Shown one piece after another: positions 1 through 25,585 of a stretch of 25,751 bases of DNA (the first letter of the stretch is position 1; every line of letters begins with the position of its first letter). Source of the DNA: a virus. Where the stretch lies: positions 1 to 25,751 of the IMG/VR virus record IMGVR_UViG_3300032053_000460; one strand, given 5' to 3'. Under the pieces are notes generated by a model, which made no database searches, was not told where the DNA came from, and saw only the letters and a list, made by a program, of their open reading frames with translations. The translations under genes and the position numbers were made by a program.

Positions 1-608
1 CCAAATTGTTCAATAAAATTATCATCATCTAATTGAAAAAATGTAAAAAATGGAACCTGATTAAAATCCCATACAGCAGTAGAAAGAAATGTTACTAACA
101 TATCGATTGAGAAAATATCACAGTCAACATAAACAGTATTCCCATAGGTATCGGTAGATTTTGCTTTACCAGAACTATTTAATCTTGCCTTAAGAGATTT
201 AAGAAGTTTATTTATATTTTTAATAGCAGCTTGTGAATATTGAAATCCAGGATCATCTCCAAGATGAACATAGCCGTCTGAATTGGTGGCGGGGACCTGT
301 GTATGTAATACAATAAAATCAAAATTAGTTTCTACGCGAAATCCATTGATGTATCCCACCCAGATATCATTAAAAACTCCATAAGGTCCATTAATAGGAA
401 CTGTATAAATAAAAGAATACTTGCCCGTGCCAACTTTTGCCACTCCAGCAGAGGTTGGAGATAATGCCACTAAGCCGCTTGGTTGAATAATAGAAATTGT
501 AGGGAAAGAATCGGTATCAACCGGGACTCCCGAAGTATTTTTAAATTGTATAGTTAAATTAACCTGATCTGTGACATCGATTAATTCGCCTCGCGCTTTG
601 ATTGCCAT
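1..608 (-). CDS. Virion structural protein with N-terminal beta (Ig-like) domain, 3' end cut by window edge
   Basis: The gene begins at the ATG at 608 and stays open for 202 codons to the left edge, so its C-terminus is missing. An AGGA ribosome-binding site lies about 8 bases upstream, and the start directly abuts the stop of the gene at 611. The first 105 or so residues look like a beta-sandwich (ELIDVTDQVNLTIQF, then KYSFIYTVP). The next part is helical and basic (AAIKNINKLLKSLKARL), followed by a Tyr/Asp segment (NTVYVDCDIFS). This resembles uncharacterised phage tail or baseplate-associated proteins in which an Ig-like domain precedes a helical region, but I cannot name the family. It carries one DGY motif, at residues 111-113. 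A structural role is inferred from context and composition only. Confidence 0.7.
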   Translation of the reverse strand, partial: MAIKARGELIDVTDQVNLTIQFKNTSGVPVDTDSFPTISIIQPSGLVALSPTSAGVAKVGTGKYSFIYTVPINGPYGVFNDIWVGYINGFRVETNFDFIVLHTQVPATNSDGYVHLGDDPGFQYSQAAIKNINKLLKSLKARLNSSGKAKSTDTYGNTVYVDCDIFSIDMLVTFLSTAVWDFNQVPFFTFFQLDDDNFIEQF

Positions 609-610
609 AT

Positions 611-970
611 TTATCCTATAGTGGTGCCAAAGTTACCGAATGGCGCCGTAACTATTATTTGCCACAATTTATTTAGATAGCTTGCGGGATTAGATCCTGG
701 TATTCGATAATATCCATCCACTGCATAACTTCCAACAGCTGAAGCGGTAACTGGCAGAGTAAATTGGAAAAAATATAATCCAACATCCAATTTAATCATA
801 TTTTGAGGAAATCCGGTAGCTAAAGATAAATCGGGAAAAATAACTCTTGTGATAAAAGGGTATCCATCGGGAAAGGTATAGCCATCAGCGCGCATGCCAT
901 AGCCATCTAAAGTTTCTAGAAAAACTGTAGCTTTTTGTCCTGGAAAGTAATAAAGTTCTGTAGCGCCCAT
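611..970 (-). CDS. Small beta-rich structural protein with four DGY motifs
   Basis: This 119-residue protein starts at an ATG preceded by a strong AAAGGAG site. It is predominantly beta (YYFPGQKATVFLETL near the N-terminus; LDVGLYFFQFTLP in the middle; LWQIIVTAPFGNF at the end) and looks like one Ig-like or fibronectin-like sandwich of the kind found in phage baseplate and tail accessory proteins. There is no signal peptide or membrane segment. It lies between the 20-residue-repeat protein and the Ig-like protein at the left edge, with almost no intergenic space, consistent with one late operon. Four DGY tripeptides in 119 residues (LDGYGM, ADGYTF and PDGYPF within about 15 residues, plus VDGYYR) make it the most DGY-dense gene in the window. 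The exact function is unknown. Confidence 0.75.
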   Translation of the reverse strand: MGATELYYFPGQKATVFLETLDGYGMRADGYTFPDGYPFITRVIFPDLSLATGFPQNMIKLDVGLYFFQFTLPVTASAVGSYAVDGYYRIPGSNPASYLNKLWQIIVTAPFGNFGTTIG

Positions 971-992
971 TGGTCTCCTTTTATTATACTAT

Positions 993-2677: not shown

Positions 2678-4807
2678 TTATGAATTGGTTGGAGTAGTGA
2701 TTCCATCCCAAGGTCCAGCCACCAAAGCTAATCCAAGTGAAGATAATTGAATCCATCTTTTTGTATCATAAGTATCGGTGCCACCGCCACTATTTACAAA
2801 ATATAGCCAACGACACGTTCCCTTTCGTATTTTTTGATTTAATTGTGTTGATACGATCCATAATGGCTCTCTAACTGCAGTATTTACTGGTGCAGTTGCA
2901 ACACGATCTACTGTTCCAGAATTTAAGTTTAGAAGAGATGTAGTACTATATTGTCCTAACATTGCTCCCTGAAATTCTTGAAAAGTATCATTAGTTGAAA
3001 ATCCTCTACGTCTCCAACCACGATATGGTGTAAAATTTATAATCGCAGTTAACCCTGCATTCCATGTATCTGCTGAAGCATAACTAGCTGTAGCTGCCGT
3101 GCGATTTGAGACATAGTTTACGTTATTTTGAGCCATATGAACATATGGATCAATATCTCCATCCTCACTATCATCGCATCTTTGATATGCTGAACCAACA
3201 AATGATGTAGGTGCATTAATTGGTGTCCCTAAAGCTAAAATATAGCTTCCATCTTGAGATATATTAGCATCTTCAATATTATTAGCACACATTACTTGTG
3301 CAACACCATAAGAAGTAGTTGTGGTACCAATCCAGTTTCCAGAGGTAGTAGTTACGGCACCAGGACCTCCAGTTCCAACAATAGTATAAGTTCCAGTGGT
3401 AGGAAATCCATTTGTTAATGGGTTTCCGCCTGATTGTCCTCCAGGACAAATATTAGCAGTACAGGTCGCTAATGCAGCCATAGTAGAAAAACGACCTTGC
3501 ACAGAAGTGGTGGTTGCCTCATTAACAGAATCAATTATTTGAAAATAAGCATGTCCAAGAGCGATAGTATTTTTCCATATAACTATTTCTCTAACAAATT
3601 CAAGTGGCGTTCCTGTTGGAGTAACAGTGGCTCCAGAATATGTCCCAGTAATAATATTAGATGAACTCCATCCTCTAACAGCGGCGCCAGTACCACTAAC
3701 ACGAGGAGCAACCACAATGTAACCTAATGAGGTATCTGGATCTGTTAATACTCCTAATAATTCGCCAGTAGCTCCGGTTGTGGTTTGCGTGACATTTTCT
3801 CCACGTATAAATGATATAGTTGGTACAACGTTTCCAATAGGAATTCTCATAGTAGATGGACCCTCGGCACACCACCATGCACCGACCTGAAAAGCGCCCG
3901 TAATAGATGTTGGCATGACATCTGTTACTGAACTTTTTTCAGTCCACGTTGCTGTTCCTGGAGTTGTCTCCGCAACCGCCGTAGGATTTTCTATTTCTAT
4001 GGAAGTGGCTGAAATGAATTTAGTAATCAACCAAGTTCCATTATTTGCTGCATTAGTAGCACCGGTAATAGTTAGTAAATGCCCAGGAGAAGTGGTTGCA
4101 AAATCAGTTAATCCAGTTAATGTTACTCTTCCACTTTTTGCTGTTGTTGTTGGAGTGCCAATTGTAAATGCAGCGGTAGCTGTTTGTGCTCCAACTTGAA
4201 CGCCGGCACCCCACTTATCATTAGATGGATTGCCTGTAGTTTCTTTTAATCCAAAGAAAACGCTGCCACCAGTAGTCATAGTTCCAGTACCACCAGTACA
4301 GCTTAAAAATTGACTAGCGTTTGTACTTAAATAAGATACTGTCTGTGTGCCAGTACTAGTTACTACTGATATAGTTCCAGACGTTGCAAAACCTGTAGTA
4401 GATGCTACGATAACAGTTGCAGCAGTTACTGCATTACCTGTGGACATAGTACCAGTACCACCCGTACAGCCTGTAAAAGTATTTAATGTTGTTCCAGTAT
4501 ATGTAACTGTTTGTGTACCTGCTCCGGTAACTACAAAAATAGTTCCACTTGTTGAAAATCCAGTAGTGGCAGCAACGTTAATAGTACCAGTAGGAAGAGC
4601 TACACCATTAGAGGCAAGCGCAATTGTTGTGGCTTGTGAAAGAACAGTAGCATTAGATGCTGCGGCAATAGTCGTAATAGAATATCCATCTGATGATGCT
4701 TTATATCTCCATCCAGCAGCTTTTAAACCTCTGGTAAGGCGCCATTGTGCACTCCAAATATCTGTATTGGTAGTAAGGGTAGAGTTTGGTATTGTAATAT
4801 TTGGCAT
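2678..4807 (-). CDS. Large virion or tail protein, paralogue of the gene just upstream, with an inserted duplicated beta module
   Basis: A 709-residue protein of Gly/Thr/Ser-rich beta composition. It matches the 657-residue product of 4811-6784 through most of its length: N-terminus (LKAAGWRYKAS versus LLAAGWKYKAS), centre (GENVTQTTTGATGE in both) and C-terminus (GWRRRGFS, FQEFQGAMLG, GPWDG). It differs by an insertion of about 125 residues after KASSDGY. The insertion holds two copies of a TGFxTSGTIxVVTxxGTQTVxY...CTGGTGTMxTG unit, a module type common in phage receptor-binding proteins. A module with NNGTWLITKFISATS follows and is shared with other genes here. The start ATG lies 4 bases before the upstream gene's stop boundary, so the two are coupled. 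It has one DGY, at the left junction of the insertion. Its exact role in the virion is unknown. Confidence 0.75.
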   Translation of the reverse strand: MPNITIPNSTLTTNTDIWSAQWRLTRGLKAAGWRYKASSDGYSITTIAAASNATVLSQATTIALASNGVALPTGTINVAATTGFSTSGTIFVVTGAGTQTVTYTGTTLNTFTGCTGGTGTMSTGNAVTAATVIVASTTGFATSGTISVVTSTGTQTVSYLSTNASQFLSCTGGTGTMTTGGSVFFGLKETTGNPSNDKWGAGVQVGAQTATAAFTIGTPTTTAKSGRVTLTGLTDFATTSPGHLLTITGATNAANNGTWLITKFISATSIEIENPTAVAETTPGTATWTEKSSVTDVMPTSITGAFQVGAWWCAEGPSTMRIPIGNVVPTISFIRGENVTQTTTGATGELLGVLTDPDTSLGYIVVAPRVSGTGAAVRGWSSSNIITGTYSGATVTPTGTPLEFVREIVIWKNTIALGHAYFQIIDSVNEATTTSVQGRFSTMAALATCTANICPGGQSGGNPLTNGFPTTGTYTIVGTGGPGAVTTTSGNWIGTTTTSYGVAQVMCANNIEDANISQDGSYILALGTPINAPTSFVGSAYQRCDDSEDGDIDPYVHMAQNNVNYVSNRTAATASYASADTWNAGLTAIINFTPYRGWRRRGFSTNDTFQEFQGAMLGQYSTTSLLNLNSGTVDRVATAPVNTAVREPLWIVSTQLNQKIRKGTCRWLYFVNSGGGTDTYDTKRWIQLSSLGLALVAGPWDGITTPTNS

Positions 4808-6825: not shown

Positions 6826-7686
6826 TTAAGCATATGTGATTAATAACCGTGCATTTATGCAATAAACTTGATCATTTTGATTGCCGCCGTTCATTTTTAA
6901 TTGAACTTCATATTGAGCGCTTGTATCACTACGAATATTTCCGGCAGACGCCCCAACAGTTAAATTAAGTGCGGAGATTGTTGCCAAACTAAGACTAGTA
7001 GAAGTAAGATTTGTGCTTGTTACTAATGTATTGTTAGTAACATCAAATAATTGGACTTCAACTGATGTAGCAGTAATAGTTTTTTGCACATCTGCAAAAA
7101 ATGAAATTGTACGAGCAAGCCCATTTAATGTGGCTGGCCACTTACTAATATCAATACTTCTGCCGCCTACACGTTGAAAAGTAGATAATCCAGTAGATGA
7201 TTGCCCTGATACAAAAGATAATTCTACTGATGAAACCGCGCCGCCAGCAGTTGCTTTGGCATACCAATACCCATCAGTATTATTCCAAGTTAATGCATAA
7301 CCATCTTGAGATGCCCCTAAACTTTGGGTAGCTACAGGATTACCTTTTATTTTAGCAACTGTAGCATTTTCTACTTTACCAGATAAGTCACCACCACCAG
7401 TTATAACTTGATTAACTGCACCTGCAGTTAATATATGAGTAACAGTGGTTAAATCTGCCCAACCAATAGCCGCAGTGCCTTCTTGACCACGCAATACAGT
7501 AAAGGTAGTTCCGCTAACTCCAGTAACTAAAACAATTTCTGCCGTTATTGGACTAATACCAATTAACAAACGAAAATTAGGTAAAGTTGGAAATGTTGCC
7601 GCACTGGTAACCACTAATGTGGTAGCAACATTAGTAATGGCACCATTTAATGTAGAAGATGCATTATTTGCAAACTGTTCAGTCAT
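6826..7686 (-). CDS. Tail-fibre or receptor-binding type protein
   Basis: A 286-residue protein with an AAGGA site and ATG start. The first 80 residues are a module widely seen in phage tail-fibre proteins: NVATTLVVTSAATFP, then EIVLVTGVSGTTFTV and LRGQEGTAA, ending VTHILTAGAVNQ. A short linker with a typical fibre motif follows (QDGYALTWNNTDGYWYAKA, two DGYs). The C-terminal domain is beta-rich (TISFFADVQKTITATSVEV; YCINARLLITYA at the end), consistent with a receptor-binding or jelly-roll-like head. No catalytic motifs are seen. It lies second in the minus-strand unit that starts at 8169. The tail-fibre call comes from the module order. Target and copy number are unknown. Confidence 0.7.
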   Translation of the reverse strand: MTEQFANNASSTLNGAITNVATTLVVTSAATFPTLPNFRLLIGISPITAEIVLVTGVSGTTFTVLRGQEGTAAIGWADLTTVTHILTAGAVNQVITGGGDLSGKVENATVAKIKGNPVATQSLGASQDGYALTWNNTDGYWYAKATAGGAVSSVELSFVSGQSSTGLSTFQRVGGRSIDISKWPATLNGLARTISFFADVQKTITATSVEVQLFDVTNNTLVTSTNLTSTSLSLATISALNLTVGASAGNIRSDTSAQYEVQLKMNGGNQNDQVYCINARLLITYA

Positions 7687-10804: not shown

Positions 10805-11164
10805 TTAATCTTTTGCCCAGGCTTCGACTCTTATATTAACAGGTCCAGTAGATCCTGTTTTTAATCTAAACCAAATCATACAAATAGTTCGAAAGGGGAA
10901 ATTTAAAGTAGCAGAGGCTGTGCCCGGCACCATATCTCCATGAACGGTTGTTCCATTAAAAGAATATTCGATAGTATTAGCTGCACCAGAGCCATAATTA
11001 ATAAAGGATCCAGAATGAACTGAAAATGGAATGACGACATCTGGTCCATAACCATCTACAACGGTATACCCATCTGGGGCTCCAAATTGTGTCCAGTTTA
11101 CAGGAACTATTTTAAAATAGTTAAAATTTCTTCCTATTGTTTTTTTAAAATATGGATAAGCCAT
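10805..11164 (-). CDS. Small beta-rich structural protein with two DGY motifs
   Basis: A 119-residue protein with a GGAG site before its ATG. Composition is aromatic and beta-rich: MAYPYFKKTIGRNFNYFKIV at the start, a GGxxNTIEYSF-like strand in the middle, and a C-terminal strand pair ICMIWFRLKTG and VNIRVEAWAKD. It looks like a single beta-sandwich domain of a virion accessory protein. APDGYTVVDGYGPDVV carries two DGY tripeptides five residues apart. It follows the patatin pair and precedes the HNH/cold-shock unit. No family is recognised. Structural assignment is inferred from the fold-like pattern and from DGY, which in this window is confined to structural genes. Confidence 0.65.
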   Translation of the reverse strand: MAYPYFKKTIGRNFNYFKIVPVNWTQFGAPDGYTVVDGYGPDVVIPFSVHSGSFINYGSGAANTIEYSFNGTTVHGDMVPGTASATLNFPFRTICMIWFRLKTGSTGPVNIRVEAWAKD

Positions 11165-12077: not shown

Positions 12078-12932
12078 TTATTTATATTTTGTTAAGGCAT
12101 CAATAAAACCTATATCAATCATGCGATTAATTTCTACATTATCAAACCTCAAAGAGTCATCAATTAAATCAACATCAGGTCTAATACTATGAATATTTAC
12201 AAAGCGTTTATTTGGACAAGCTCCACTTAATACTAATTTATTATACATGTTTGCTATTTGCAAATCAGCTTCAATAATTTGATCTGTCATTAGATCAACG
12301 GTTCTTAATGCTAAAGTAATTGTTTTAGCATTGCTATCATATTTAGACGTAGTTTTAACTGGAGAACAAATAATCATATCCACCTCATCTGCGCCCAAAT
12401 CAATTGCGGCTTTTAATGGTGTAATATGTTTAACGCCGCCATCGGTCCATAACTGACCATCAATTTCAATAGGTTTAAGTCCACTTGGAAAAGATGAGGA
12501 AGCTAATACGCCATCTACAAAACAATCATCTTGTTCGGTAAATAATCTATAGTTACCGGTATCTAATGATACGGCACCAACCGCTACTTTTTTGCCTGAT
12601 GAACGAACTCTATTCATATCAATAGATGAGTGCATTAAATCAATAAGTGGCTGACTATTATATAAACTCTTTTTCCATAGAGCATGAAGTTTGCCAAATG
12701 GAAACCAGCGCTTATATATTTTAGAAGAATCTAAAGATTGCCAAAATTTTAATAGCTGAGTAAATCCTTCTAAATCATTTTTAAACATTGATAAGAAAGA
12801 CACGTTGAGTGCGCCAACAGAAACACCACAAACGATGTCATAAGTTATGCCAAGCTCACCAATTAGATGTTTAAGAGCGCCAACCTGGTAACTACCTTTT
12901 ACTCCGCCTCCTGATAATACTAAGGCTCTCAT
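12078..12932 (-). CDS. Patatin-like phospholipase (first of a tandem pair)
   Basis: A 284-residue patatin-domain protein, a tandem paralogue of the 12068-11208 product. It shows the SGGGVKGSYQVG oxyanion loop (residues 7-18), GVSVG with nucleophile Ser38, and Asp164 in WTDGG. The start chosen is the ATG at 12932: it overlaps the preceding stop (TAATG), has GGAG 8 bases upstream, and begins MRALVLSGGG exactly like the paralogue. An in-frame start at 12965 would add 11 hydrophobic residues lying inside the upstream gene and is unlikely. Shared flanking blocks include SSKIYKRW, FPFGKLHALW and SGKKVAVGAVSL. It forms a coupled pair with the upstream DGY-containing virion-type protein, tying the lipases to the late structural operon. 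Confidence 0.9.
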   Translation of the reverse strand: MRALVLSGGGVKGSYQVGALKHLIGELGITYDIVCGVSVGALNVSFLSMFKNDLEGFTQLLKFWQSLDSSKIYKRWFPFGKLHALWKKSLYNSQPLIDLMHSSIDMNRVRSSGKKVAVGAVSLDTGNYRLFTEQDDCFVDGVLASSSFPSGLKPIEIDGQLWTDGGVKHITPLKAAIDLGADEVDMIICSPVKTTSKYDSNAKTITLALRTVDLMTDQIIEADLQIANMYNKLVLSGACPNKRFVNIHSIRPDVDLIDDSLRFDNVEINRMIDIGFIDALTKYK

Positions 12933-14059
12933 TACTCTGACTCCGATGTACAATAGAAAGTACAAGTAGCTAAATCTCCTTCAAATGGAGTATCGTGACT
13001 AAGCTTAATTCTTAACTCTATTCCATAAGATGATTGTAACAATCTAACAGTTCCATATCTAAAAGGAATCGATTGTAAATATGATGTCATGCCACGTGAT
13101 ATTTTTCTACGATCTTTATTGGACATTGCGGCATGTTGCTTATCAGATCCTAACACTTCAATTAAAGGATAAGCCCCAATAGCCTCATTAAAAATCTGTG
13201 ATAACCTCTTATATACGGTTCTATTCAAAGGAATTTTGGTGCCTGGTGGCAATCCTAACTGTGGGGCAAAAACAGCAGCATATCCGTAAACATTATACTC
13301 AATGGCATCATACATTTTCACATCTTGAGTAAAATCTGCCTCTGCTGCCTCAATGCGTAATTGAGTGCCCGGTAATGGTTGTAAAATAAAAGTACTATCT
13401 ACAGCTTTTGAATAAGAAACTATTACAGCTTTACCACTCCAGTCTTCAAAAGATACAACATAGCCATCGTCCCAATAAACATCATAATCACCACCAGATG
13501 TTAAAAATGGCTCTCTCATTACTTTTTCATAACCATCAACTTTAACTACAACCTGATAGCCATGAGGATCTTCAGCATTTAATTCTTTCTGTTGCTCTAC
13601 CCATCCATCATCATCTTGAACGCGTCCAGAAATCATGTCTACCCAAAATTGATTAGCTGAATTCCAAACATAACCATCAGAAGTCGTTAAGACTTCATCA
13701 TTTATTCTTTCACTAGTTGTAAACCAAGTAACTTTATCACAAAAATTATGTGTAGTTAAAATGGTTTCACTTCCAGAGCGTGGTTCAGATACTACAATTG
13801 TTCTAGATTCATTATCTAATTTTTGAATAGAAATGTTATTTTTATAAGAAGATTCAAAATCTGATGCTTCATCAGTTAATTTATTAAAACTGCAAATTCT
13901 AAAAATATAACTATCCTCAGCTACAACTGTATATGTATTTTCATCTTCCGTCCAAGTATGATTTAATTTAGCGTGCGCTCCATCAATCCATTTTTTAAAT
14001 TCAGCCCAATCTGGACTGTAATCAATTATTGGACTATTATTCATTTGTAATTTTGCCAT
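12932..14059 (-). CDS. Virion-type structural protein with three DGY motifs
   Basis: A 375-residue soluble, acidic, beta-rich protein with an AAGG site before its ATG. The N-terminal part (SPDWAEFKKWIDGAHAKL, then ENTYTVVAEDSYIFRI) precedes a central region rich in Trp/Tyr/Asp. The C-terminal half has PLPGTQLRIEAAEADF, an AIEYNVYGYAAVF strand, and ends with SSYGIELRIKLSHDTPFEG and CTFYCTSESE. This matches a type of phage protein I know only as an uncharacterised tail or virion component. DGY occurs at residues 128, 175 and 198. Its stop overlaps the start of the first patatin gene, so the two are translationally coupled. No enzymatic motif is recognised. Confidence 0.7.
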   Translation of the reverse strand: MAKLQMNNSPIIDYSPDWAEFKKWIDGAHAKLNHTWTEDENTYTVVAEDSYIFRICSFNKLTDEASDFESSYKNNISIQKLDNESRTIVVSEPRSGSETILTTHNFCDKVTWFTTSERINDEVLTTSDGYVWNSANQFWVDMISGRVQDDDGWVEQQKELNAEDPHGYQVVVKVDGYEKVMREPFLTSGGDYDVYWDDGYVVSFEDWSGKAVIVSYSKAVDSTFILQPLPGTQLRIEAAEADFTQDVKMYDAIEYNVYGYAAVFAPQLGLPPGTKIPLNRTVYKRLSQIFNEAIGAYPLIEVLGSDKQHAAMSNKDRRKISRGMTSYLQSIPFRYGTVRLLQSSYGIELRIKLSHDTPFEGDLATCTFYCTSESE

Positions 14060-14067
14060 AATTTACC

Positions 14068-16362
14068 TTACTGTATTAGCTGCACAAGCATGTCTAATAG
14101 TCTAGATTTACTTACGGTACCACCCGCATATTCCATTCCAAGCATAGTGCCTGCTGGAAAAGTAATGGCACCTGGAGCATATAACGTTTCCGTTTGTGTG
14201 GTAGTAGATTGATCTTGATGTAGCGCTAACTGAAGAAGTCCTAATAATTTAGAAATTCCATTCTGAGATGGCGTTCCAGAACAACTTTGAATTGATTGCA
14301 CTCCCAAATCAGCACCCTGTAAAACAAGATCAAATCTGGATCCTACAACAGATCCTTTAGGAATAGTAATAGTACCACTTCTACCTGAAGTTCCAGTTTC
14401 ATTAGTATATCCAACTGTCAAAACAACGTTACCAGAACCTGCCGTATATAGTGTAGTAACCTCTGCCTGTATAACTGGAACCCATTGCGGCGATGCATAT
14501 GAGCTTCCTGCTGTAAACACATTGGTATTATTATTATGCGTTCCCATATTAGTTTCTGCTACAACACGACTGACAGCAACCTCTCCTTGGAATGAAACAA
14601 ATTTAATCAAATACCCAGAATACGCCGCTGGAACAGTATATGTAGTAACTCGTTTATATGCGTTAGCCAAAATGGCACCTTCTGATTTATTGAAGTTAAT
14701 GTTAATAATTTTAGGTAGCGCCGTACCTCCGCCTGGAGTACCGAATTGAATATTAACAGGAATTCCTCCTGGAGCGCCTTGTATTGTAACTGGCTGATCT
14801 AATGCAATAGCATCTCTATTTTGAAAGAAAATACTATCTATAGAAAATGTTGTTAATGAAGCTGTTGTACCAGTATTTTGAATATATACAATTTGATTTA
14901 ATGAATTATAAGGTCCGGGTAAATGAATTTGATGACTGGCAACTTGCGTTCCATTAATAATAAATACAGTTCCCTCAGAACCTTGATCAATTTGAAAGAC
15001 ATTAGAGGCACTAGTTAAAATTCCAGACGGAATAGTTATTAAAGTTTCTTGTATACTATCACTAGCAAAACTACTACGACATTTTACTTTTGAACTATCA
15101 GTACCATCAAACACAAAACAAGCTTGCTGTTCCGGAGTTCCAATAATATCTTGAAATCCTATACAGATTGTTTGATTAACAATACGCTGACTAATAGATA
15201 ATGTAGCTAACATTGTAAATGGAAGATAGTCACCACTTCTTAATATGCTAACTATAGCTCCATTAACTGTGCTGGCTATTAAATTTACTAAAGAGCTACC
15301 AACTGTAATATTTGCGGGAGAAGCGGGAATAGATATAAACCAATCTGATGAAATAGCTGTAGATGATGCTGTAGCGCCAGTATATGCAGAGTCTAATACA
15401 AGTTGAGTATCAGAAATAACTTCACTAACTAATGCTAAAGCTGAATTGGCATGAGCGCTAATACGAATATAATTATCTGTACTAAGTTTGCTCGTAAATA
15501 AAGTTCCAGTTCCAGTTACAGAAGTAGATCCATTAGTGAAGTTAAATGTTCCAGTAAGATTGGTTAATAATGAACTTCCAGAAAAATCATCTCTAAATGA
15601 TCCCTCATCTGTAAGTATTGCGCTACGTGTAATGAGTTGTCCACTAGGATCAGAAGTTATTGGTTGAGGAATACTTACATAATTTTTTGGATCTGGAGAA
15701 TAAGCTGTAATTAAATTTGCTGCTACTCCAATATTTCCAAGTGCATCTCCACGAATTCTTTGGACATAACCATCTTGGTCTACAAGTGCAATTGGAACTG
15801 GTGCATCGGTAGCTAAAGAGCCAACTTCAGACATGCCTTCAATAGCATTTCCTGAAACATGACCGACCCAAGCAACATTAACTCCAGTCCATGAAGCGCC
15901 TGCCCCAGTTACTGTCCATGAAATCTTGACAGTATCACCATCTAACTCTTTTATATTAAGAGATTCTTTTTCAGCTATCGTATGGGTAATTCCGGTTTCT
16001 TTTAATTCAAAAACACTTGTTAAATCTACTGGATCAAGTTCTTCAACTTTAAATCTAATAGTGGGTAATGTTCCAGTGGGAGCATTCTTCAAGTTAATTA
16101 ATAAATACCATTCGCTATAACCAAGACCAGTTATAGTTGCGCTTCCGCTAGAAGTAATGGTAGCGTTATTGTGAATAATTGCTTTCCATGCATCAGCAAC
16201 AGTTTTTGTAGAGCCATTAGATGTGGTGGCTAAAAAACGCGCATTGGTTCCATCTGAACCTGCCATAAGAATAGATTTGGCAGTACTTGCAACCGTTGCA
16301 TTATTAGCAACGCCAAGTTCATATCCATCAGCATTTTCTAGAACCTTTACTGTTAACGGCAT
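14068..16362 (-). CDS. Large tail-fibre-like protein
   Basis: A 764-residue protein with an AAGGA site. The N-terminus (NADGYELGVANN, then LMAGSDGTNARFL) matches that of the next gene upstream, so the two are paralogous there. The middle holds a beta module (FNFTNGSTSVTGTGTLF; EVISDTQLVLDSAYTG) and a region resembling a concanavalin/LamG-type lectin sandwich (TICIGFQDI; GTVFIINGTQVASHQI; TFSIDSIFFQNRD). The C-terminal 200 residues form another beta domain (IININFNKSEGAILA; TMLGMEYAGGT). Composition is Ser/Thr/Ile-rich, without catalytic motifs. It has two DGYs, residues 12-14 and 197-199. A receptor-binding or fibre role is likely from architecture and neighbours. The lectin-like fold is my inference from the strand pattern. 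Confidence 0.75.
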   Translation of the reverse strand: MPLTVKVLENADGYELGVANNATVASTAKSILMAGSDGTNARFLATTSNGSTKTVADAWKAIIHNNATITSSGSATITGLGYSEWYLLINLKNAPTGTLPTIRFKVEELDPVDLTSVFELKETGITHTIAEKESLNIKELDGDTVKISWTVTGAGASWTGVNVAWVGHVSGNAIEGMSEVGSLATDAPVPIALVDQDGYVQRIRGDALGNIGVAANLITAYSPDPKNYVSIPQPITSDPSGQLITRSAILTDEGSFRDDFSGSSLLTNLTGTFNFTNGSTSVTGTGTLFTSKLSTDNYIRISAHANSALALVSEVISDTQLVLDSAYTGATASSTAISSDWFISIPASPANITVGSSLVNLIASTVNGAIVSILRSGDYLPFTMLATLSISQRIVNQTICIGFQDIIGTPEQQACFVFDGTDSSKVKCRSSFASDSIQETLITIPSGILTSASNVFQIDQGSEGTVFIINGTQVASHQIHLPGPYNSLNQIVYIQNTGTTASLTTFSIDSIFFQNRDAIALDQPVTIQGAPGGIPVNIQFGTPGGGTALPKIININFNKSEGAILANAYKRVTTYTVPAAYSGYLIKFVSFQGEVAVSRVVAETNMGTHNNNTNVFTAGSSYASPQWVPVIQAEVTTLYTAGSGNVVLTVGYTNETGTSGRSGTITIPKGSVVGSRFDLVLQGADLGVQSIQSCSGTPSQNGISKLLGLLQLALHQDQSTTTQTETLYAPGAITFPAGTMLGMEYAGGTVSKSRLLDMLVQLIQ

Positions 16363-16376: not shown

Positions 16377-17447
16377 TTATGTTAACTCTGTAACTCTTGC
16401 CGCACCATTGGCACCGGCCCACAATCCATCAAGCTGTCCAGTAAAAGCGGCTGGCACTTCAAAATATCCCTGCGCCCCAACTTTTGCAGTAAAACTAGTC
16501 GTACTTGCAGTTGCGCCTAGCTTAAGATATAACGTTTGATTAGAGTCATTATAGACTGTTGCTCCTAATCTATTAGTATTTGTAGCTAATAATGTTATGT
16601 TGGTAACAGAAGATGATACGCTAGTTACTGCGCTAGTATTGGATTTAGTTTGTGTGGATGAAACTTGTAAAATACCAGTAGTATCTGTTTTAAGCGTTCT
16701 AGCATTCGTTCCATCTGAGCCTGCCATCAAAACTGGATTGCCAGTGACTGCAGCTCCGTTAGCTGCAGCTCCGACTACAATTTGACGACCAGAAACATCA
16801 GTTAAAATATCTCTGGTATTGGTTCCATCAGAACCGCCAATTCTAACTGGACTGCCTACAACCGCCGCTCCGCTAGTTCCCAAACCGCCAACACTAGCTA
16901 ATAAGCTAGATGCAGTTGCCTGCTGAACTGTTACAGTTCCAGTAACTGGTTGACTTGTCGTCCCTGTCGGATCAGTTCTAATTGGGTTGGTCGCGGTTCC
17001 GCCAGCAACAGAACCTCCGCTTGCTGGTAATCTTATGCTGATACCTAAATTATTATCAACACCAGCGCCAGTATCTATATCAAAAACTTTAAAGGGCTGT
17101 AAATTAGTTCCATCAGTACCACCAATAAAAGTGGCTGATGCAGGTACTGCTGCACCTGTAGCACTTACGCTGGCATTGTTAGCAGTAACAGTACCAGATA
17201 CGGGAACTGCTTGACCTCCAGATACGCCTTGAATGGAAAGCACGCCACCTGCTGGTGTTCCGGCAGAACCTGCACCTACCACAATTTGACGGCCAGTCGA
17301 ATCTATTCCGATATATCTGGTATTGGTGCCGTCATAACCAGCAATTAAAAGGGCGGCACTCGTAGCAGGCAATACGGTGTTATTTTTAACAGATACTTCA
17401 TATCCGTCTGTATTGAAAATAATTGATACTGGTGAGTCTAATGACAT
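16377..17447 (-). CDS. Tail protein with repeated SDGTN modules
   Basis: A 356-residue protein with a strong AGGAG site. It is built of repeated units centred on GxDGTNxR followed by a turn such as TDVSGRQIVVGA. Four are visible (AGYDGTNTR, GGTDGTNLQ, GGSDGTNTR, AGSDGTNAR), a repeat well known in phage tail and fibre proteins. The C-terminal domain (LLATNTNRLGATVYNDS, LYLKLGATASTTSF, GLWAGANGAARVTEL) is a common phage capping domain of about 85 residues. The N-terminus has NTDGYEVSVKNN, homologous to the start of the 764-residue neighbour, so DGY is shared by descent at this one position. No enzymatic motif is present. Confidence 0.8.
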   Translation of the reverse strand: MSLDSPVSIIFNTDGYEVSVKNNTVLPATSAALLIAGYDGTNTRYIGIDSTGRQIVVGAGSAGTPAGGVLSIQGVSGGQAVPVSGTVTANNASVSATGAAVPASATFIGGTDGTNLQPFKVFDIDTGAGVDNNLGISIRLPASGGSVAGGTATNPIRTDPTGTTSQPVTGTVTVQQATASSLLASVGGLGTSGAAVVGSPVRIGGSDGTNTRDILTDVSGRQIVVGAAANGAAVTGNPVLMAGSDGTNARTLKTDTTGILQVSSTQTKSNTSAVTSVSSSVTNITLLATNTNRLGATVYNDSNQTLYLKLGATASTTSFTAKVGAQGYFEVPAAFTGQLDGLWAGANGAARVTELT

Positions 17448-17473: not shown

Positions 17474-18151
17474 TTATGGCGTTATCGTTCTAGTTCTAGA
17501 CGTTTCTAGAGGGCCAGAATAGCTTATTGTATCAGTAACTGTAGCTAATACAGTTACTCCATTAGTATCATATGACTTATATATGACTACCGAAGGCGTT
17601 TTATTTGGATTATAAGCTATTAATTTTTCAACTATCTTTTGTGTTTTAACTGGAGAAGTCCACCAAGTTATACTGGTAGGAAAAGGGTCAGCAATTGGTA
17701 AAATTTCCCTATATGTTCCTGTAGTAAATCCTTCAAATGGTCCACCAATGCCATCTGCTAAATGAATAAGTCTTCTTAAAGAATCATGATTGGTCCAAGT
17801 AGGTGGCTGACCAACCCCATGAGTCTGTAGAAAATATCCGTCTGTGCCAGGAGGCAAATCGACCCAGGCATATCCATCAAAATATAATGTGGAACCATAA
17901 GTGGCTCCCGGAATAAAAATGGTAGTTGTATTAATTGGCTGCCAAGAAGTATTGGTATCATCACGTCGATATAAAACATTAATATCGCTACGCCAAAAAA
18001 TTTCACCAGGATATGTCGGAGAGCCTGGAAAAGAAGTGCCAGATGGCATGCCAAGAACACCGCCACAAACCCTATCAAATTGCAATACGCCAGTAATGGT
18101 TCTATCTGAAGAATCATTGATGTGTATTTGGGCTATAACTAATCCTGACAT
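17474..18151 (-). CDS. Virion or tail protein with two DGY motifs
   Basis: A 225-residue protein with a GGAG site before its ATG. The N-terminal half resembles the head-needle or fibre linkers of phage tails: SPTYPGEIFWRSDINVLYRR, then TLYFDGYAWVDLPPGTDG, with two DGYs nine residues apart. The C-terminal half begins SLRRLIHLADGIGGPFEG and continues ITWWTSPVKTQKIVEK. It ends with a beta hairpin (VTVLATVTDTISYSGP) that resembles the end of the next upstream gene (AVVSTLTETFVYSS). A virion component of unknown position is the best call. There is no membrane segment or catalytic motif. Confidence 0.7.
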   Translation of the reverse strand: MSGLVIAQIHINDSSDRTITGVLQFDRVCGGVLGMPSGTSFPGSPTYPGEIFWRSDINVLYRRDDTNTSWQPINTTTIFIPGATYGSTLYFDGYAWVDLPPGTDGYFLQTHGVGQPPTWTNHDSLRRLIHLADGIGGPFEGFTTGTYREILPIADPFPTSITWWTSPVKTQKIVEKLIAYNPNKTPSVVIYKSYDTNGVTVLATVTDTISYSGPLETSRTRTITP

Positions 18152-18178: not shown

Positions 18179-18916
18179 TTAAGTTTTTGTACTAATGATA
18201 TTAGTAATTTTATTATGAGAAGAATATACAAAAGTTTCCGTTAGAGTGCTGACGACTGCTCCAACTGGATTATATTGTTTAATAACAACTTGATTAACGT
18301 GCTGATCACAAGTAATAATAGTATAACTAATTTGATATTCCCTTATTTTTATAGTCATAAGAGAGTTTGTCCATATAGTATAATTAATAACTTTATTTCC
18401 AGAATATGTAACTGTTGAATATCCATCTTCAGCAATATTATGAACTAAAGTATCTAATATTTCGTGCTCTACTTCAGAAATTCCTGAAGCGCTAAGTGCT
18501 ACCTCTCGAATAGCGTCCTGAACATTATGAGCAGTAATGGAAAATAATCCTGTTGGATCAAATCCTACACTTTTTGCACCAACTGGATGCATAAAATATA
18601 TTGTACCACCAGTAGATGATACTATTGATGTATTTACTGAAAAACTAGTTTCAGATATAATAGAATTAATAATAAAATAACCATCAGCTAACCCACCTGA
18701 TGTTCCGGTTAATCTAACTCTATCTCCAGCATTTGCAAGATGATCTCTACCTGTAATTAAACCTTCACCATCTGATGGTAAAACAATAGTAATTACATTT
18801 CCAATAGAGTTAGTTGATATTAAAGTTGAAGATAAATAGACGGCATATCCATCAGAAACTAATTCTGATGAATCAACAATATCTAAATCAGCTAAATCTT
18901 CTTTACGGATTACCAT
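18179..18916 (-). CDS. Virion or tail protein with three DGY motifs
   Basis: A 245-residue protein. Residues about 30-110 form a beta module shared with several genes here (VRLTGTSGGLADGYFI, then NSIISETSFSV). A motif common in phage tail proteins follows (HNVQDAIREVAL), then a C-terminal beta domain (NYTIWTNSLMTIKIREY; VSTLTETFVYSSHNKI) related to the end of the next gene. DGY occurs in VSDGYAV, LADGYFI and AEDGYST. The ATG at 18916 lacks a recognisable Shine-Dalgarno sequence. Instead an 8-bp inverted repeat overlaps the start, which is unusual in this operon. No enzymatic motif is seen. Confidence 0.7.
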   Translation of the reverse strand: MVIRKEDLADLDIVDSSELVSDGYAVYLSSTLISTNSIGNVITIVLPSDGEGLITGRDHLANAGDRVRLTGTSGGLADGYFIINSIISETSFSVNTSIVSSTGGTIYFMHPVGAKSVGFDPTGLFSITAHNVQDAIREVALSASGISEVEHEILDTLVHNIAEDGYSTVTYSGNKVINYTIWTNSLMTIKIREYQISYTIITCDQHVNQVVIKQYNPVGAVVSTLTETFVYSSHNKITNIISTKT

Positions 18917-19620: not shown

Positions 19621-21120
19621 TTACGCGTATACAAAATAATTTATATGATCTTGTAACTTTTGCTTCGTATAGAAGGTTACTGAGGTTGTGCTAGTTTCAG
19701 CATAATCATTTCCATCTACGATAGGACCAGGGTCTCTTAAAACACCTCTAGTATAAATAACTAGATTTTGACCATTATTAGTTGGGTCTAGAGTATATGA
19801 TAAGGCACCAGGAATTGTATGTGGTACGTTAGCCAAAATATCAGCAGGCAATCTTTCAATTATTCTAATAAAGCTGGCGGCTTCAATACAATTTGCCAAA
19901 CTTTGTAATAATTCAGTGATTGTATATCCATCTTTATTACCTATACAAGTACCGGTAAATACTCTATCACCAACTTGTGTATTAATAGTATTTAATGCTT
20001 CTGTAACAGATGGAGTTCCATCAGGTAAATCACTCCAAATATAATAATTTGATGTTGGAGTTAATGTAAGGAACGTATCACCAAGCGTCGTACCAAGAGT
20101 GATAAGAATATTGTTAATATTAGTTGCTGATTGAGAGTCTGCAAATAAACCATTAACTAAAGTAGTTCTAAATGCCGTTTCAGTTAATTGGTCTGCTCTT
20201 TCACGATAACCGTAGTAATAATCTACAGTAGTTGGTTGGTAGCCGTCCCAAGTATAAGCTGTAGAAGTGCTAATATCTGCACCCATTGCAACTTTTCTAA
20301 ATTCAACTTCAATGCTATTTGGCTCAACACCAGTAGTTCCTTGACGAGTACGTCCAAAAATTCTGTGACCAGTATAACCATCAATTAAATAATTTTCAGT
20401 TACTGGATTAATAATTTCTACATAATGAGCTTCAAGATTAGCAGCATCAAATCCGTCTACAATTGGAACACCAGTTCTATCTACAGAGTCAGCATATTGA
20501 AATGCGCTTGCAGCAGTAAGAGTAGAATAACCATCGCCAGAAACAACTGGGTCGGCACGATAAACTCTATTAACTACCCATGCATGTGCATCTAAAGTCT
20601 TGCCAGCAATATTAGTTAAGTTAGCCGGAATATTTGTAGCTGAAGTGTTAGTTGGACGAGTATAAACTGGAACAGCGCTATGGAAAGCTGCAGTTCCTTT
20701 AATTAATCTACGGTCTGTACGCGCAAAGTTAATGTCATCTTCTAATGTATATGGAGTTCTTTCGGTCCAAACAATGGCTGCGTTATTTACATCGTTAGCT
20801 ACAGCGCTTGCATTAACGATAGTTACATAACCATCATTAACATAACCGTCAATTAAGAAAGTTCCCGTATTACTTGCAGATGCTGTACCGCTTAATGTAA
20901 GGAATCTTCCCTTAGATTGCTCAGTCATGCCAGTTAAACCGGTAACATTAGCGCCATTTGCGGTTAATGTGGTTATACTTGCTAACGAACCCGTTTGACC
21001 AGAAATGGGCGCACCATAACCGTCTGGCTCATTGGATAGAGTTCTAATATCTGATTGTAACAAAGATCCAGCAATATCTAAAGCTTGGTCTAAAGCATTT
21101 TTGCGTACATAAGCTGTCAT
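19621..21120 (-). CDS. Large structural protein with seven DGY motifs
   Basis: A 499-residue protein with an AGGA site before its ATG. Residues 41-120 form the beta module shared with other genes (GRFLTLSG, NTGTFLI, IVWTER). The remaining 380 residues include TPYTLEDDINFARTDRRLIK, a Tyr-rich DYYYGYRERADQLTETAF helix region, a long middle domain, and a C-terminal end VTFYTKQKLQDHINYFVYA. It follows the short non-coding gap at 21121-21210 and probably leads the tail block. Its place just downstream of the capsid block suggests a tail, sheath-like or neck component, but no family can be named. DGY occurs seven times (EPDGYG, IDGYVNDGYV, GDGYST, IDGYTG, WDGYQP, KDGYTI), the most of any gene here. 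Confidence 0.75.
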   Translation of the reverse strand: MTAYVRKNALDQALDIAGSLLQSDIRTLSNEPDGYGAPISGQTGSLASITTLTANGANVTGLTGMTEQSKGRFLTLSGTASASNTGTFLIDGYVNDGYVTIVNASAVANDVNNAAIVWTERTPYTLEDDINFARTDRRLIKGTAAFHSAVPVYTRPTNTSATNIPANLTNIAGKTLDAHAWVVNRVYRADPVVSGDGYSTLTAASAFQYADSVDRTGVPIVDGFDAANLEAHYVEIINPVTENYLIDGYTGHRIFGRTRQGTTGVEPNSIEVEFRKVAMGADISTSTAYTWDGYQPTTVDYYYGYRERADQLTETAFRTTLVNGLFADSQSATNINNILITLGTTLGDTFLTLTPTSNYYIWSDLPDGTPSVTEALNTINTQVGDRVFTGTCIGNKDGYTITELLQSLANCIEAASFIRIIERLPADILANVPHTIPGALSYTLDPTNNGQNLVIYTRGVLRDPGPIVDGNDYAETSTTSVTFYTKQKLQDHINYFVYA

Positions 21121-21210: not shown

Positions 21211-21894
21211 TTAAATTTTAACAACATAAGTTGCATAAAGTAAACTATGAGATACTGGAGTAAGAGAACAAAAATTTAAAGTGTCATAACCTGTTCCAGG
21301 TCCACTAGATTCTCCTATAGTATAATCTATATTTTCATATAATTCTTTACCATTATGCTCTATTGTTATATGAAAAAGATTGCCAAAATAAGATCCATTA
21401 ATAAATTTTTCTGGAGTATAAAAGGTCATATTAAGACCATTTCTTAATCCAATTAAAGGTATTTTTTCTCTCCAAGCATAATTTAATGAGCCTGGTGGAG
21501 TAGGTGGATGATTATTAGTAATGTAACCATCAATACATGCCATTGCATCATCGCTTATGTGAACACATTGAATTTGAAGACCTGGCGCTTTCTCTGGTAT
21601 AAATCCAAAATGAGTTAAAAATTCTCTCTCACAGTCGCTCCACGTTAAAAAATCAACGTCTGTAAAAATTAACTCAATATCTCCGGCTAAAAATTTATGC
21701 CAAATTTCTCCCTTAAGAAGAGAGGCTCTAATATCGCTTTCTGCTACTCCACGAATTTTTAATAAATCTCTTTCCTTTCCAAAATTAATAGGATATCGAA
21801 AAATAGAAATAGTTTTATTTCTATCTGGACAGATATTTTTAACGATAAATGATTTGCATATATTTCTATGCGGGGCGAAGGAATCCATTCCCAT
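21211..21894 (-). CDS. Uncharacterised virion-associated phage protein
   Basis: A 227-residue protein with GGAGAAG upstream of its ATG. The N-terminal 90 residues include KTISIFRYPINFGKERDLL, RGVAESDIRASLLKGEIW and IELIFTDVDFLTWSDCEREF, a pattern I associate with uncharacterised proteins of tailed phages found between capsid and tail genes. The C-terminal half is beta-rich (HITIEHNGKELYENIDYTIG, then a final TPVSHSLLYATYVV). It has five cysteines without zinc spacing and a single DGY (CIDGYITNN). It starts two bases after the previous stop, so it is coupled to the gene at 21897. A neck or head-tail connector role would fit its position but is not demonstrated. Confidence 0.65.
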   Translation of the reverse strand: MGMDSFAPHRNICKSFIVKNICPDRNKTISIFRYPINFGKERDLLKIRGVAESDIRASLLKGEIWHKFLAGDIELIFTDVDFLTWSDCEREFLTHFGFIPEKAPGLQIQCVHISDDAMACIDGYITNNHPPTPPGSLNYAWREKIPLIGLRNGLNMTFYTPEKFINGSYFGNLFHITIEHNGKELYENIDYTIGESSGPGTGYDTLNFCSLTPVSHSLLYATYVVKI

Positions 21895-22736: not shown

Positions 22737-23762
22737 TTAGTAACCAGATTCAACACCGACAACAACTGACTTACGACCAGCAGCTACGCCTCTTGGATTT
22801 ACGATTGCAATTCCAATGATTTCGCTGACAACCCAGCCTAATTTAAGTTGTTTTGGTTCATCGGCAGGTAATACCTCGATGTCCTGTCTAATTGGCATAA
22901 CTCCTACGAATTCTGGGTCGGCCGCGCCATATATCGTTCCTGGTGGAACAATCTTGCTAACCATAATGTCAGTACCCCAGATGTGGGCATAAAGACCAGT
23001 TTGTAGAACTTCACGCATCGTTACGGGATCGAACTCACCGCCGCCGACACCTTGACCACCACCAGAACCCCACTTAAGGATATCGGTGAACTCATTGATA
23101 TTCATGAAATACTTAGTAGTTACTAAGTCCCAACGATCAATTTGTTGTTTGATTTCGACTAAGTCTCTCTTTAGAAGACCTGCGTCTGCAATGTCAGTTA
23201 AGGTGTTCTCAACTGAAGCTGCTGCGTCAAGAGCGGCAAAGATGTTGGCGTCTTCTTGAGCCATAATCTCTTGACGAGCTTTCTGAACTGCTCTGTCAAT
23301 AACATTGAATCTACGACGTTTGACTTCTGCGATACGAACCGTTGGGTTCGCATAAACTTCAAACTCAGGAACCACAACACGGTCACCGAAGACACGTGAT
23401 TCTGGACCGGTACCGTTGCTTGAGATAACAACGGCTGCAACATCGATATCTCTATCGTAAGTTGGCATTGCACCTTGTGGCAAAGGATCAACCACTAATG
23501 CACGACGTGCAATACCATGGTAATCTAAGTTTCTACGGATTGGGTTTGCCATCGCTTGCGCTAATGCAATCTTTCCGTCTTGAGTCATAATAGCGCGAGA
23601 GATAAGCTCATCACGCTTGTCATCACTCAAAGAAACTTGTCCGGCAAGTCCCATATTGGATGGGGTGTTTTCCTCAAGAACCGCTGCATACTTTACTAAA
23701 GTCTGTAATGCGTCCTTTAAAGAACTTGCATTCATTTGACCTTGATTTGAGAACATATTCAT
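22737..23762 (-). CDS. Major capsid protein
   Basis: A 341-residue protein with a GGAG site before its ATG. Its N-terminal helix (SLKDALQTLVKYAAVL), the long central helix region (VIDRAVQKARQEIMAQEDAN with KQQIDRWDLVTTKYFM), and the beta-rich C-terminal domain (YAHIWGTDIMVSKIVPPGTI; GWVVSEIIGIAIVNPRGV) match the general HK97-fold capsid plan. The strict EVKRRRFNVID and RALVVDPLPQGAMPTYD segments are typical of phage major capsid proteins. It is richer in G+C and uses more frequent-type codons than its neighbours, as expected for a highly expressed protein. It is isolated by its own terminator and by an opposing HNH gene upstream. It contains no DGY, unlike the tail genes. The assignment is by pattern and context. 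Confidence 0.75.
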   Translation of the reverse strand: MNMFSNQGQMNASSLKDALQTLVKYAAVLEENTPSNMGLAGQVSLSDDKRDELISRAIMTQDGKIALAQAMANPIRRNLDYHGIARRALVVDPLPQGAMPTYDRDIDVAAVVISSNGTGPESRVFGDRVVVPEFEVYANPTVRIAEVKRRRFNVIDRAVQKARQEIMAQEDANIFAALDAAASVENTLTDIADAGLLKRDLVEIKQQIDRWDLVTTKYFMNINEFTDILKWGSGGGQGVGGGEFDPVTMREVLQTGLYAHIWGTDIMVSKIVPPGTIYGAADPEFVGVMPIRQDIEVLPADEPKQLKLGWVVSEIIGIAIVNPRGVAAGRKSVVVGVESGY

Positions 23763-23823: not shown

Positions 23824-23902
23824 ATAATTAAATAACTAATTATTACCATTATTGCCATAATATTTTCTTCAAACCACATGCGTATTATGATATATACTTA
23901 AT

Positions 23903-24898
23903 ATGGATTTAATAGGTAGAATTTTTGAAAGATTAACTGTTGTATCATTTGTAGGGATAATTAAAGATAAACATAAAAGCTATAAATGTTGGAAATGTAA
24001 ATGTATTTGTGGTAATTTTATCGAAATATCAACAAATAAATTAACTAGCGGAAACACCAAATCTTGTGGGTGCTTAAAAACAGATAATTTAATAGCGCGT
24101 TCATATAAATTAGCAAATGCGAGGCGACAATTCGAACCACACATTGCTTCGGCTAGAAGAGTTTGGAAAAATACTTATTGTTATCGAGACGTTAATTGTA
24201 TTGGATTTGATGATTTTCTTAAAATATCTCAAAAAAATTGTTTTTATTGTGGAGTGCCGCCGAATACATCATATAATTATTTCGCAATTTCATCAAGTAG
24301 AGCGTCGGCACAAGCGCAACAAAACGGACTATTTATTTATAATGGAATGGACCGTATCGATAGTGACAAGTCACACACAATAGATAATATTGTGCCAGCT
24401 TGTATAATTTGTAATCGTGCTAAAAATAATCGATCTGTAGAAGGCTTCTTATCTTGGAGCAATAATTTAAAAATATCTATTTTTCAACCAATTAATATTA
24501 TTAAAATATCATTTCCAACTAACGGATCATTGGCAACATCTATAAAATGCGTTTTTTATAATCACAAAGATGATACCGATCTAACTTTAGAAGAATATTA
24601 TTCAATCTCTCAGAGAAATTGTTTTTATTGTGATAATACGCCAAGCAACTTATTTAATAATGCAAAAAAAGATAAAAAAGCATCTCTTAAAGCCAAAGAA
24701 AATGGAAATTATATTTATAATGGAATTGATCGAATAGATATCAATCAGCCGCACAATAAAAATAATATTGTTCCGTGTTGCCATTGGTGCAATTTTGCAA
24801 AAAATACATTATCTATTATTGATTTTCAAATATGGGCACATCGCATTCAACAGTTTCAAAAACAAAAAGAGCTGGATTTTACTCCAGCTCTTTTATAA
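23903..24898 (+). CDS. HNH homing-type endonuclease with two tandem HNH domains
   Basis: A 331-residue protein. Residues 1-59 are a zinc-ribbon type DNA-binding domain (GRIFERLTVVSF, CKCICGNFIEIS, TKSCGCL) of the kind found at the N-terminus of phage HNH enzymes. Two homologous nuclease-like units follow. The first, about 113-174, has CFYC, YNGMDRID and NIVPACIICNRAK. The second, about 240-299, has CFYC, YNGIDRID and NIVPCCHWCNFAK. Both keep the Cys pairs and the DRID and Asn core, so neither looks decayed. It lies between the decoration and capsid genes, on the opposite strand, typical of a mobile intercistronic homing endonuclease. There is no ribosome-binding site, and only a TATTAT box 15 bases upstream. 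Its last codons form half of a transcription terminator. Confidence 0.85.
   Translation: MDLIGRIFERLTVVSFVGIIKDKHKSYKCWKCKCICGNFIEISTNKLTSGNTKSCGCLKTDNLIARSYKLANARRQFEPHIASARRVWKNTYCYRDVNCIGFDDFLKISQKNCFYCGVPPNTSYNYFAISSSRASAQAQQNGLFIYNGMDRIDSDKSHTIDNIVPACIICNRAKNNRSVEGFLSWSNNLKISIFQPINIIKISFPTNGSLATSIKCVFYNHKDDTDLTLEEYYSISQRNCFYCDNTPSNLFNNAKKDKKASLKAKENGNYIYNGIDRIDINQPHNKNNIVPCCHWCNFAKNTLSIIDFQIWAHRIQQFQKQKELDFTPALL
24864..24895. terminator. Bidirectional rho-independent terminator embedded in the HNH 3' end
   Basis: An 11-bp perfect stem (AAAAGAGCTGG at 24865-24875 with CCAGCTCTTTT at 24884-24894) has an 8-base loop. The plus strand ends in TTTT and the minus strand in a T-rich run, so it can stop both the HNH gene and the decoration gene (stop at 24920). 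It overlaps the last ten or so codons of the HNH gene. Confidence 0.85.
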
Positions 24899-24919
24899 AA
24901 TTTACTTAACTATCAGTTA

Positions 24920-25585
24920 TTAGCTTGATGGGTTGAAGTAGAAGGTCGCGAATGCATAGGTCTTTAATGCACCGATTAAGCTGTTTGGGGTATTAACCAA
25001 AGAGCCATTAGTATCGAAATCTACGAAGCGACCAACTAGTCTAGTTGAATTGGTGCCAGTAGAGCTATCTGGAGTTAAAAGTCCCGCAGAAGTTGCATAA
25101 AGTGCATTACCCGTACTTAAAGTTCCATTAGTTGGTCTTAAACCAGTAGTAGCATTGCTGTCGCAGGCTGCGTCAAGAGAGACGGCATAAAGACCTGGCT
25201 TCTCCCAGCAAGTTACTTTGCCAGAACCAGTTGCAGTGTGAGGTCCAAGAACTCCACCATTAGCAACCGTTTGACCAGTCATTACTTGACCGACAGTTCC
25301 ACCGACCACAGTGCCGAATAGAGTGCCGTAACCAGTAATACCTTCATCACATAACATTAATGGACGAACGCCAGATGCGAGAGTCTTAGTAACGACAACT
25401 CTTTTTCCAAGGTTAGCAGAGTTTACATAACCATCTAAAGAATCGAAAGCTGCCTTATCAAGAGTAGAAGTTTGAACAGTTCCAAAAGTAACTACTTCTC
25501 CACCTAATAATGTTAATACTTCAGTGTCAAGACCGTCAAATTGTCCAAGGGGTTGTCCACCTGGTTGTAATAGTTTTAAAGACAT
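24920..25585 (-). CDS. Probable capsid decoration or minor head protein
   Basis: A 221-residue Gly/Thr/Val-rich beta protein with an AGGA site. It begins SLKLLQPGGQPLGQFDGLDT and continues GGEVVTFGTVQTSTL, KRVVVTKTLASGVRPLML and YGTLFGTVVGGTVGQVMTG. The end has TCWEKPGLYAVSLDAAC and LIGALKTYAFATFYF. A compact, repetitive beta fold placed immediately upstream of the major capsid gene is the usual setting of a decoration or head-stabilising protein. Two cysteines (in VTCWEKP and DAACDS) flank one strand. Its A+T content is lower than neighbouring tail genes, like the capsid gene, consistent with high expression. It has one DGY (SLDGYVN). The call rests on context and composition, not on a recognised family name. 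Confidence 0.6.
   Translation of the reverse strand: MSLKLLQPGGQPLGQFDGLDTEVLTLLGGEVVTFGTVQTSTLDKAAFDSLDGYVNSANLGKRVVVTKTLASGVRPLMLCDEGITGYGTLFGTVVGGTVGQVMTGQTVANGGVLGPHTATGSGKVTCWEKPGLYAVSLDAACDSNATTGLRPTNGTLSTGNALYATSAGLLTPDSSTGTNSTRLVGRFVDFDTNGSLVNTPNSLIGALKTYAFATFYFNPSS

Follow-up and report, generated by a model that had tools for sequence, protein, structure and literature searches.

Virion glycosylation is reported for mycobacteriophages Che8 and Rita, where the glycans are located on the major capsid proteins (Freeman et al. 2023, cited in PMC11256854). Chloroviruses glycosylate their capsid autonomously and attach the glycans to Asn residues lying outside the classical sequon (PMC5408694). 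In bacterial S-layer proteins, sugar is attached to the hydroxyl of Tyr at few sites per protein, with WsfP/WsaP initiating the chain on a lipid carrier and an oligosaccharyltransferase transferring it (PMC2943079). Here, we analyze IMG/VR record IMGVR_UViG_3300032053_000460, a viral DNA fragment of 25,751 bases that constitutes the whole record and is referred to below as the window, and the tripeptide Asp-Gly-Tyr (DGY), which is extremely overrepresented in its predicted tail proteins. We assign a probability of about 0.48 to the reading that DGY is a modification sequon of a clade of huge contractile-tailed phages, the Tyr of which is O-glycosylated by a phage-encoded glycosyltransferase of the GT4 type.

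On the minus strand of the window, the degenerate word GAYGGNTAY is found in frame 30 times and specifies 30 DGYs distributed over 13 predicted proteins; it is absent from the plus strand, and a backward control pattern occurs six times. An earlier note on this DNA, made from the sequence alone, claimed this very number where about one copy was to be expected, and the claim was confirmed: 1.15 DGYs are expected from within-protein composition, and 2,000 residue shuffles gave a mean of 1.16 and a maximum of 6. DGY ranks first among the 8,000 tripeptides of the window with a z-score of 26.9, the runner-up having a z-score of 7.9 with 3 copies, and 30 of the 49 Asp-Gly dipeptides in the 13 carriers are followed by Tyr. 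Similar words are rare (DGF 1, DGW 1, NGY 0, EGY 0, DAY 0, SGY 2); the earlier note had given the same counts for DGF, DGW and NGY and a single SGY. Its statement that the plus strand and the capsid protein are free of DGY was also borne out.

The same excess is present in related phages. In ten related contigs of 112-340 kb with guanine-cytosine (GC) contents of 28-56%, DGY outranks all other tripeptides (observed/expected: G001 60/8.9, G002 36/4.6, G003 74/7.4, G004 79/11.0, G015 63/6.6, G016 105/14.8, G017 100/16.1, G022 161/14.1, G023 87/9.4, G025 89/9.2). The nearest named relative, judging from the capsid protein, is Bacillus phage G (Donellivirus), whose capsid protein is 54% identical to that of the window over 83% of the protein. 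A distant tail-sheath match to phage G also exists, the sheath of relative G003 showing 29.5% identity over just 16% of the query, and the phage G stretches included contain nothing matching the two DGY-rich baseplate families. Unlike the window, phage G has no DGY excess in the stretches examined: in the 91 kb read, the tripeptide is only 2,968th, and in three stretches it occurs at 0.8-1.5 times expectation. It ranks 1,321st in contig G007 and stands at 0.8-1.4 times expectation in structural regions of SPO1, phiKZ and Rctr197k, at 2.6 times in those of Tunturi_5, and at a milder excess of 3.6 times in those of T4. A general feature of phage tails is thereby rejected. The shuffle test over all tripeptides and the comparison with unrelated phages were both set beforehand; DGY is an extreme outlier in the window and its ten relatives, and no comparable level was found in the structural regions of the phages compared, so the proposal of a selected short linear motif common to unrelated virion proteins is supported. 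Relatives of the 499-amino-acid carrier are encoded at 28 IMG/VR loci, with none in the annotated phage collection and none in 84,980 bacterial and archaeal species genomes. The literature searched contains no description of a DGY word in phages. Whatever its mechanism, an exact tripeptide that tops the ranking across unrelated proteins of one clade strongly, and testably, suggests a protein-recognition system not yet described.

The families that bear DGY include the tail sheath (a PHROG match), large baseplate-region proteins, fibers and the product of a gene next to that of the capsid, while the capsid protein itself, a 1,600-amino-acid family and several others lack it. The highest number in any protein seen is 37, in a 2,116-amino-acid protein of contig G022 (locus L116). 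The earlier note took all carriers for virion or tail proteins. Among the carriers of the window that were scanned, PHROG tail-fiber matches bear this out for two, at 6826-7686 and 14068-16362, and no Pfam match was obtained; for the others, the assignment is largely inferred from operon position and from homology to tail and baseplate loci, as are the functional names of many carriers.

Selection acts on the protein word. The window and four contigs together supply 98 carrier proteins, which contain 279 DGYs versus 12.7 expected. None of the 57 single-residue variants departs far from chance (NGY 13/14.0, EGY 3/7.0, DAY 11/9.3); DGF (22/11.9) and DGT (52/26.7) have the largest excesses, far below that of DGY. 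Because the codons at DGY follow genome usage (GAT 0.82 in both; TAT 0.80 vs. 0.78) and only 18 matches fall in the other two sense frames compared to 279 in frame, it is the protein word and not a DNA word that is selected. A DNA or mRNA motif is thus ruled out, and so is the earlier suggestion that the word is recurrently generated as DNA. These 279 DGYs tend to cluster, with 41 successive pairs only 3-8 residues apart, sometimes as DGYDGY. The earlier note saw no conserved flanking residue, which is broadly correct, save for weak preferences for T at -1, for G at -4 and for Y nearby.

Alignments of carrier families reveal how the sites behave in evolution. Phe takes the place of the Tyr of DGY in 2.5% of aligned pairs versus 13.1% for other Tyr residues of the same proteins, and this avoidance of Phe suggests that the hydroxyl group matters. 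At 40-50% identity, 42% of pairs retain DGY, compared to 15% for other DGx words; across 40-80% identity, the retention of DGY is about 2-4 times that of other DGx words. The sites lie close to alignment gaps (75% within 5 columns vs. 44% at random). In the family of the 499-amino-acid carrier, DGY occupies about 17 alignment positions, many of them in only some members, and it often takes the place of other loop residues without insertions or deletions (SAASI/TDGYI, SATSV/NDGYV, WESGQ/WDGYQ). Tandem duplication or repeats are rejected as the source of most sites, since aligned residues are replaced and the flanks differ. Non-enriched contig G007 shares the tail module of the clade at 31-61% identity, with no DGY in those homologues. 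Its version of the 499-amino-acid carrier, with identities of 61% to the G003 protein and 54% to the window protein, has all DGYs replaced, e.g., SVAYTWDGYQPTTVD by SVAYTWESGQPTTVD, and its homologue of the 245-amino-acid carrier also has none. DGY thus appears, from these comparisons, to be a property of the genome in which a protein resides and not of the protein family. In the AlphaFold2 model of the 499-amino-acid carrier, the DGYs are mostly in loops, but the mean predicted local distance difference test score (pLDDT) is 61 and the model does not establish their surface exposure.

A candidate enzyme is encoded by the relatives. Directly 3' of a DGY-rich baseplate gene of 1,000-1,300 codons, an intact GT4 gene is located in 71 of 75 GT4 loci; it is followed on the same strand by genes of GT2 glycosyltransferases and often of a sugar epimerase. 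Each of two GT2 families is present in 57 of these loci, and the epimerase in 35. Starting from the baseplate gene, GT4 is found within the 8-kb flank in 64 of 73 loci, and eight of the nine exceptions end within about 1 kb downstream. The protein matches Pfam Glyco_transf_4 (9.5e-7, 29.4 bits vs. a cut-off of 28.5) and the PHROG glycosyltransferase (1e-25), while its Glycos_transf_1 score is only 17.3 bits vs. a cut-off of 26.4. Its AlphaFold2 model (pLDDT 92) has a GT-B fold, is similar to BshA (Z 30.8, root-mean-square deviation 2.9 over 334 residues), and is also near PglA, PimA and a chlorovirus GT4 (Z 29-30). The EX7E catalytic-site motif is found in 20 of 24 aligned members, with the last E being D or Q in four. 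GT4 was detected (E < 1e-109) in every strongly DGY-enriched contig of at least 200 kb searched and is absent from seven non-enriched records (phage G as a whole genome, Rctr197k, LR745208, Tunturi_5, Lu11, G007 and G020). The enriched contigs without it (G002, G005, G015, G023, G024) are fragments of 71-161 kb and hence do not contradict the association. Remoter GT4 homologues (25-32% identity, L317-L321) are found in loci with ordinary DGY levels.

Some proteins of these loci are unusual in other respects. A dockerin type I match (E 7.5e-5) was obtained for the DGY-rich baseplate-region protein of G003 (L020:13691-17602), and two DxNGDGxxxxxD-like motifs appear in the consensus of its family (alignment A5); such a dockerin-like module is unusual in a phage baseplate. 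The epimerase of the same glycan island (L020:6280-8265) appears to be interrupted by an intein, as a weak Pfam Intein_splicing match lies between the enzyme halves. At L317 and L319, large GT4-containing proteins are encoded among head and tail genes of other phages with no DGY excess, which suggests further virion or surface glycosylation systems.

The exact word, the Tyr hydroxyl, the gap-rich loops, the moving sites, the unrelated proteins and the dependence on the genome point to a modification or recognition system that reads three residues, and O-glycosylation of Tyr is the best single explanation because of the linked glycosyltransferase island; among the roles listed in the earlier note, a Tyr-modification tag read by a phage-encoded enzyme is favored. 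Loops of tail, sheath, baseplate and fiber proteins would bear many exact copies of DGY, and the phage-encoded cytosolic GT4 would place the first sugar on the Tyr hydroxyl, to be extended by the adjoining GT2 enzymes, with the nucleotide-sugar epimerase also possibly involved in extending or supplying the sugar. Selection may act on how many loops are tagged and roughly where, which would let the sites shift while the word stays exact. The likely outcome would be a sugar-coated tail and baseplate, the sugar stabilizing or shielding the virion or tuning surface adsorption. If this is true, a strict three-residue sequon tags many virion proteins, constituting a rare and easily readable glycosylation code, the glycan gene islands of huge phages are accounted for, and Tyr residues might be glycosylated site-specifically in the bacterial cytosol with this system as a tool. 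A little less probable is the broader proposition that DGY represents a previously unknown post-translational code, with an exact sequon that a phage cytosolic glycosyltransferase writes on numerous proteins of the tail and baseplate throughout a widespread clade of huge uncultured phages, its copies being gained and lost by protein-level selection.

To our knowledge, no strict DGY word exists in the mycobacteriophage, chlorovirus or S-layer systems. With the mycobacteriophages, the relatives of the window share phage-encoded glycosyltransferases and covalent virion glycans in a tailed phage, the glycans being putative here; unlike there, the capsid protein lacks the tag, and the proteins marked with the exact tripeptide belong to the tail, sheath, baseplate and fibers. 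A chlorovirus is likewise a large DNA virus with its own glycosyltransferases and nucleotide-sugar enzymes and a non-canonical attachment context, and the GT4 B736L of chlorovirus NY2A (3oy2) is among the solved structures closest to the GT4 of the relatives (Z 30.2), whereas in the present bacteriophages the sugar would be carried by Tyr, within an exact word spread over many proteins. Glycosyltransferase and nucleotide-sugar enzyme genes adjoining structural genes, as in virus-encoded virion glycosylation, are present in the relatives and not in the window. As in S-layer proteins, the Tyr hydroxyl of surface proteins is the (here putative) acceptor; the proposed soluble GT4 and the many DGY sites are different, and no DGY-like word was found in the S-layer source (PMC2943079).

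Several observations weigh against glycosylation by GT4. The window, a 25.7-kb fragment, contains no GT4 gene, and the link to the enzyme therefore rests on the relatives. At L344, 2.7 kb downstream of the baseplate gene are free of GT4. Despite having GT4, G028, G032 and G026 show DGY at 3.5, 2.5 and 2.4 times expectation, near background or the T4 range (3.6 times in structural genes). Since GT4 and DGY are both traits of the clade, their link may reflect shared ancestry. The depletion of DGY in conserved non-virion proteins is weak (0.34 vs. 0.58 in controls, 6th percentile) and is not relied on. Finally, glycosyltransferase clusters of jumbo phages have been interpreted as capsule-modifying systems (PMC7824862), and the island might modify phage DNA, host capsule or lipopolysaccharide, its proximity to DGY genes being accidental. 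The fact that GT4 adjoins the same DGY-rich baseplate gene on the same strand in nearly all loci, while its GT2 partners vary, makes this unlikely; as this possibility overlaps with the docking and other-modification explanations below, its probability is not additive with theirs.

DGY could instead be a non-covalent docking word for an assembly factor, a decoration protein or a tail lectin of the phage, with weak sites giving avidity in assembly or on the finished virion. The exactness, the close clustering, the proximity to gaps and the turnover of sites suit a multivalent motif, and several DGY-free families conserved in the clade, e.g., a 144-amino-acid family, could supply the partner. 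However, no candidate pocket was identified, the failure of any variant to approach DGY and the strong avoidance of Phe are stricter than in most docking motifs, and DGY-enriched G027 and G031, both fragments, lack the 144-amino-acid family; we regard docking as improbable, though next in probability to glycosylation. The same hydroxyl requirement and exactness would fit another covalent modification (sulfation, nucleotidylation, phosphorylation, oxidation, or Asp-Gly isomerization or cross-linking) by an enzyme not recognized here, and Asp-Gly is chemically prone to isomerization. Only glycosyltransferases and the epimerase are tightly linked to DGY-rich genes, although alternative enzymes were not exhaustively sought, and this possibility is rather doubtful. 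Tail-fiber-like proteins among the carriers would agree with a contact to a receptor or glycan on the host surface, multiplied to gain avidity, but the same word is used by phages of widely differing GC content, probably with different hosts, and is also found in tail sheath and baseplate-region proteins, making such a contact very unlikely. The least credible option is that tail proteins rich in repeats and beta structure simply favor DGY as a tight-turn sequence: Asp-Gly forms turns well and the modeled DGYs are mostly in loops, but NGY, DGF, DGT and DAY are not comparably enriched, the homologous loops of G007 use other residues, and unrelated phages have no such excess.

The DGY carriers and the capsid gene of the window are listed in Table 1.

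Table 1. DGY-bearing predicted proteins and the major capsid protein of the window
Feature	Coordinates	Strand	DGY	DGY positions	Matches and family
Carrier, 202 aa (amino acids) seen, cut by window end	3..608	-	1	270-278	homologues in 10 related contigs; distant one in phage G
119-aa carrier	611..970	-	4	710-718, 860-868, 878-886, 899-907	family in 8 contigs, 21 DGY
709-aa carrier	2678..4807	-	1	4682-4690	
286-aa carrier, tail-fiber-like	6826..7686	-	2	7267-7275, 7297-7305	PHROG tail fiber 8e-11
119-aa carrier	10805..11164	-	2	11048-11056, 11066-11074	family in 9 contigs
375-aa carrier	12932..14059	-	3	13460-13468, 13529-13537, 13670-13678	
764-aa carrier, tail-fiber-like	14068..16362	-	2	15766-15774, 16321-16329	PHROG tail fiber 6e-6
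356-aa carrier	16377..17447	-	1	17400-17408	
225-aa carrier	17474..18151	-	2	17834-17842, 17870-17878	
245-aa carrier	18179..18916	-	3	18419-18427, 18677-18685, 18845-18853	
499-aa carrier	19621..21120	-	7	19924-19932, 20239-20247, 20374-20382, 20527-20535, 20827-20835, 20842-20850, 21016-21024	
227-aa carrier	21211..21894	-	1	21523-21531	
Major capsid protein	22737..23762	-	0		PHROG major head protein 6e-78
221-aa carrier, upstream of capsid gene	24920..25585	-	1	25427-25435	family in 9 contigs, 12 DGY

The neighbor of the 709-amino-acid carrier (4811-6784) is similar to it and has no DGY. On the plus strand, positions 8257-8670 encode a conserved 137-amino-acid protein, the window member of the 144-amino-acid family; this family has members in 24 of the 33 related records and lies close to DGY-rich genes. 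It at first seemed to track strong DGY enrichment but was rejected as a specific DGY partner given its presence in weakly enriched G028 and its absence from the two enriched fragments. Among the tail genes, two adjacent and related patatin-like proteins are encoded at 11208-12068 and 12078-12965, and the 377-amino-acid protein encoded at 993-2126 contains imperfect INGTATISA-like repeats and a Pro- and His-rich C-terminus.

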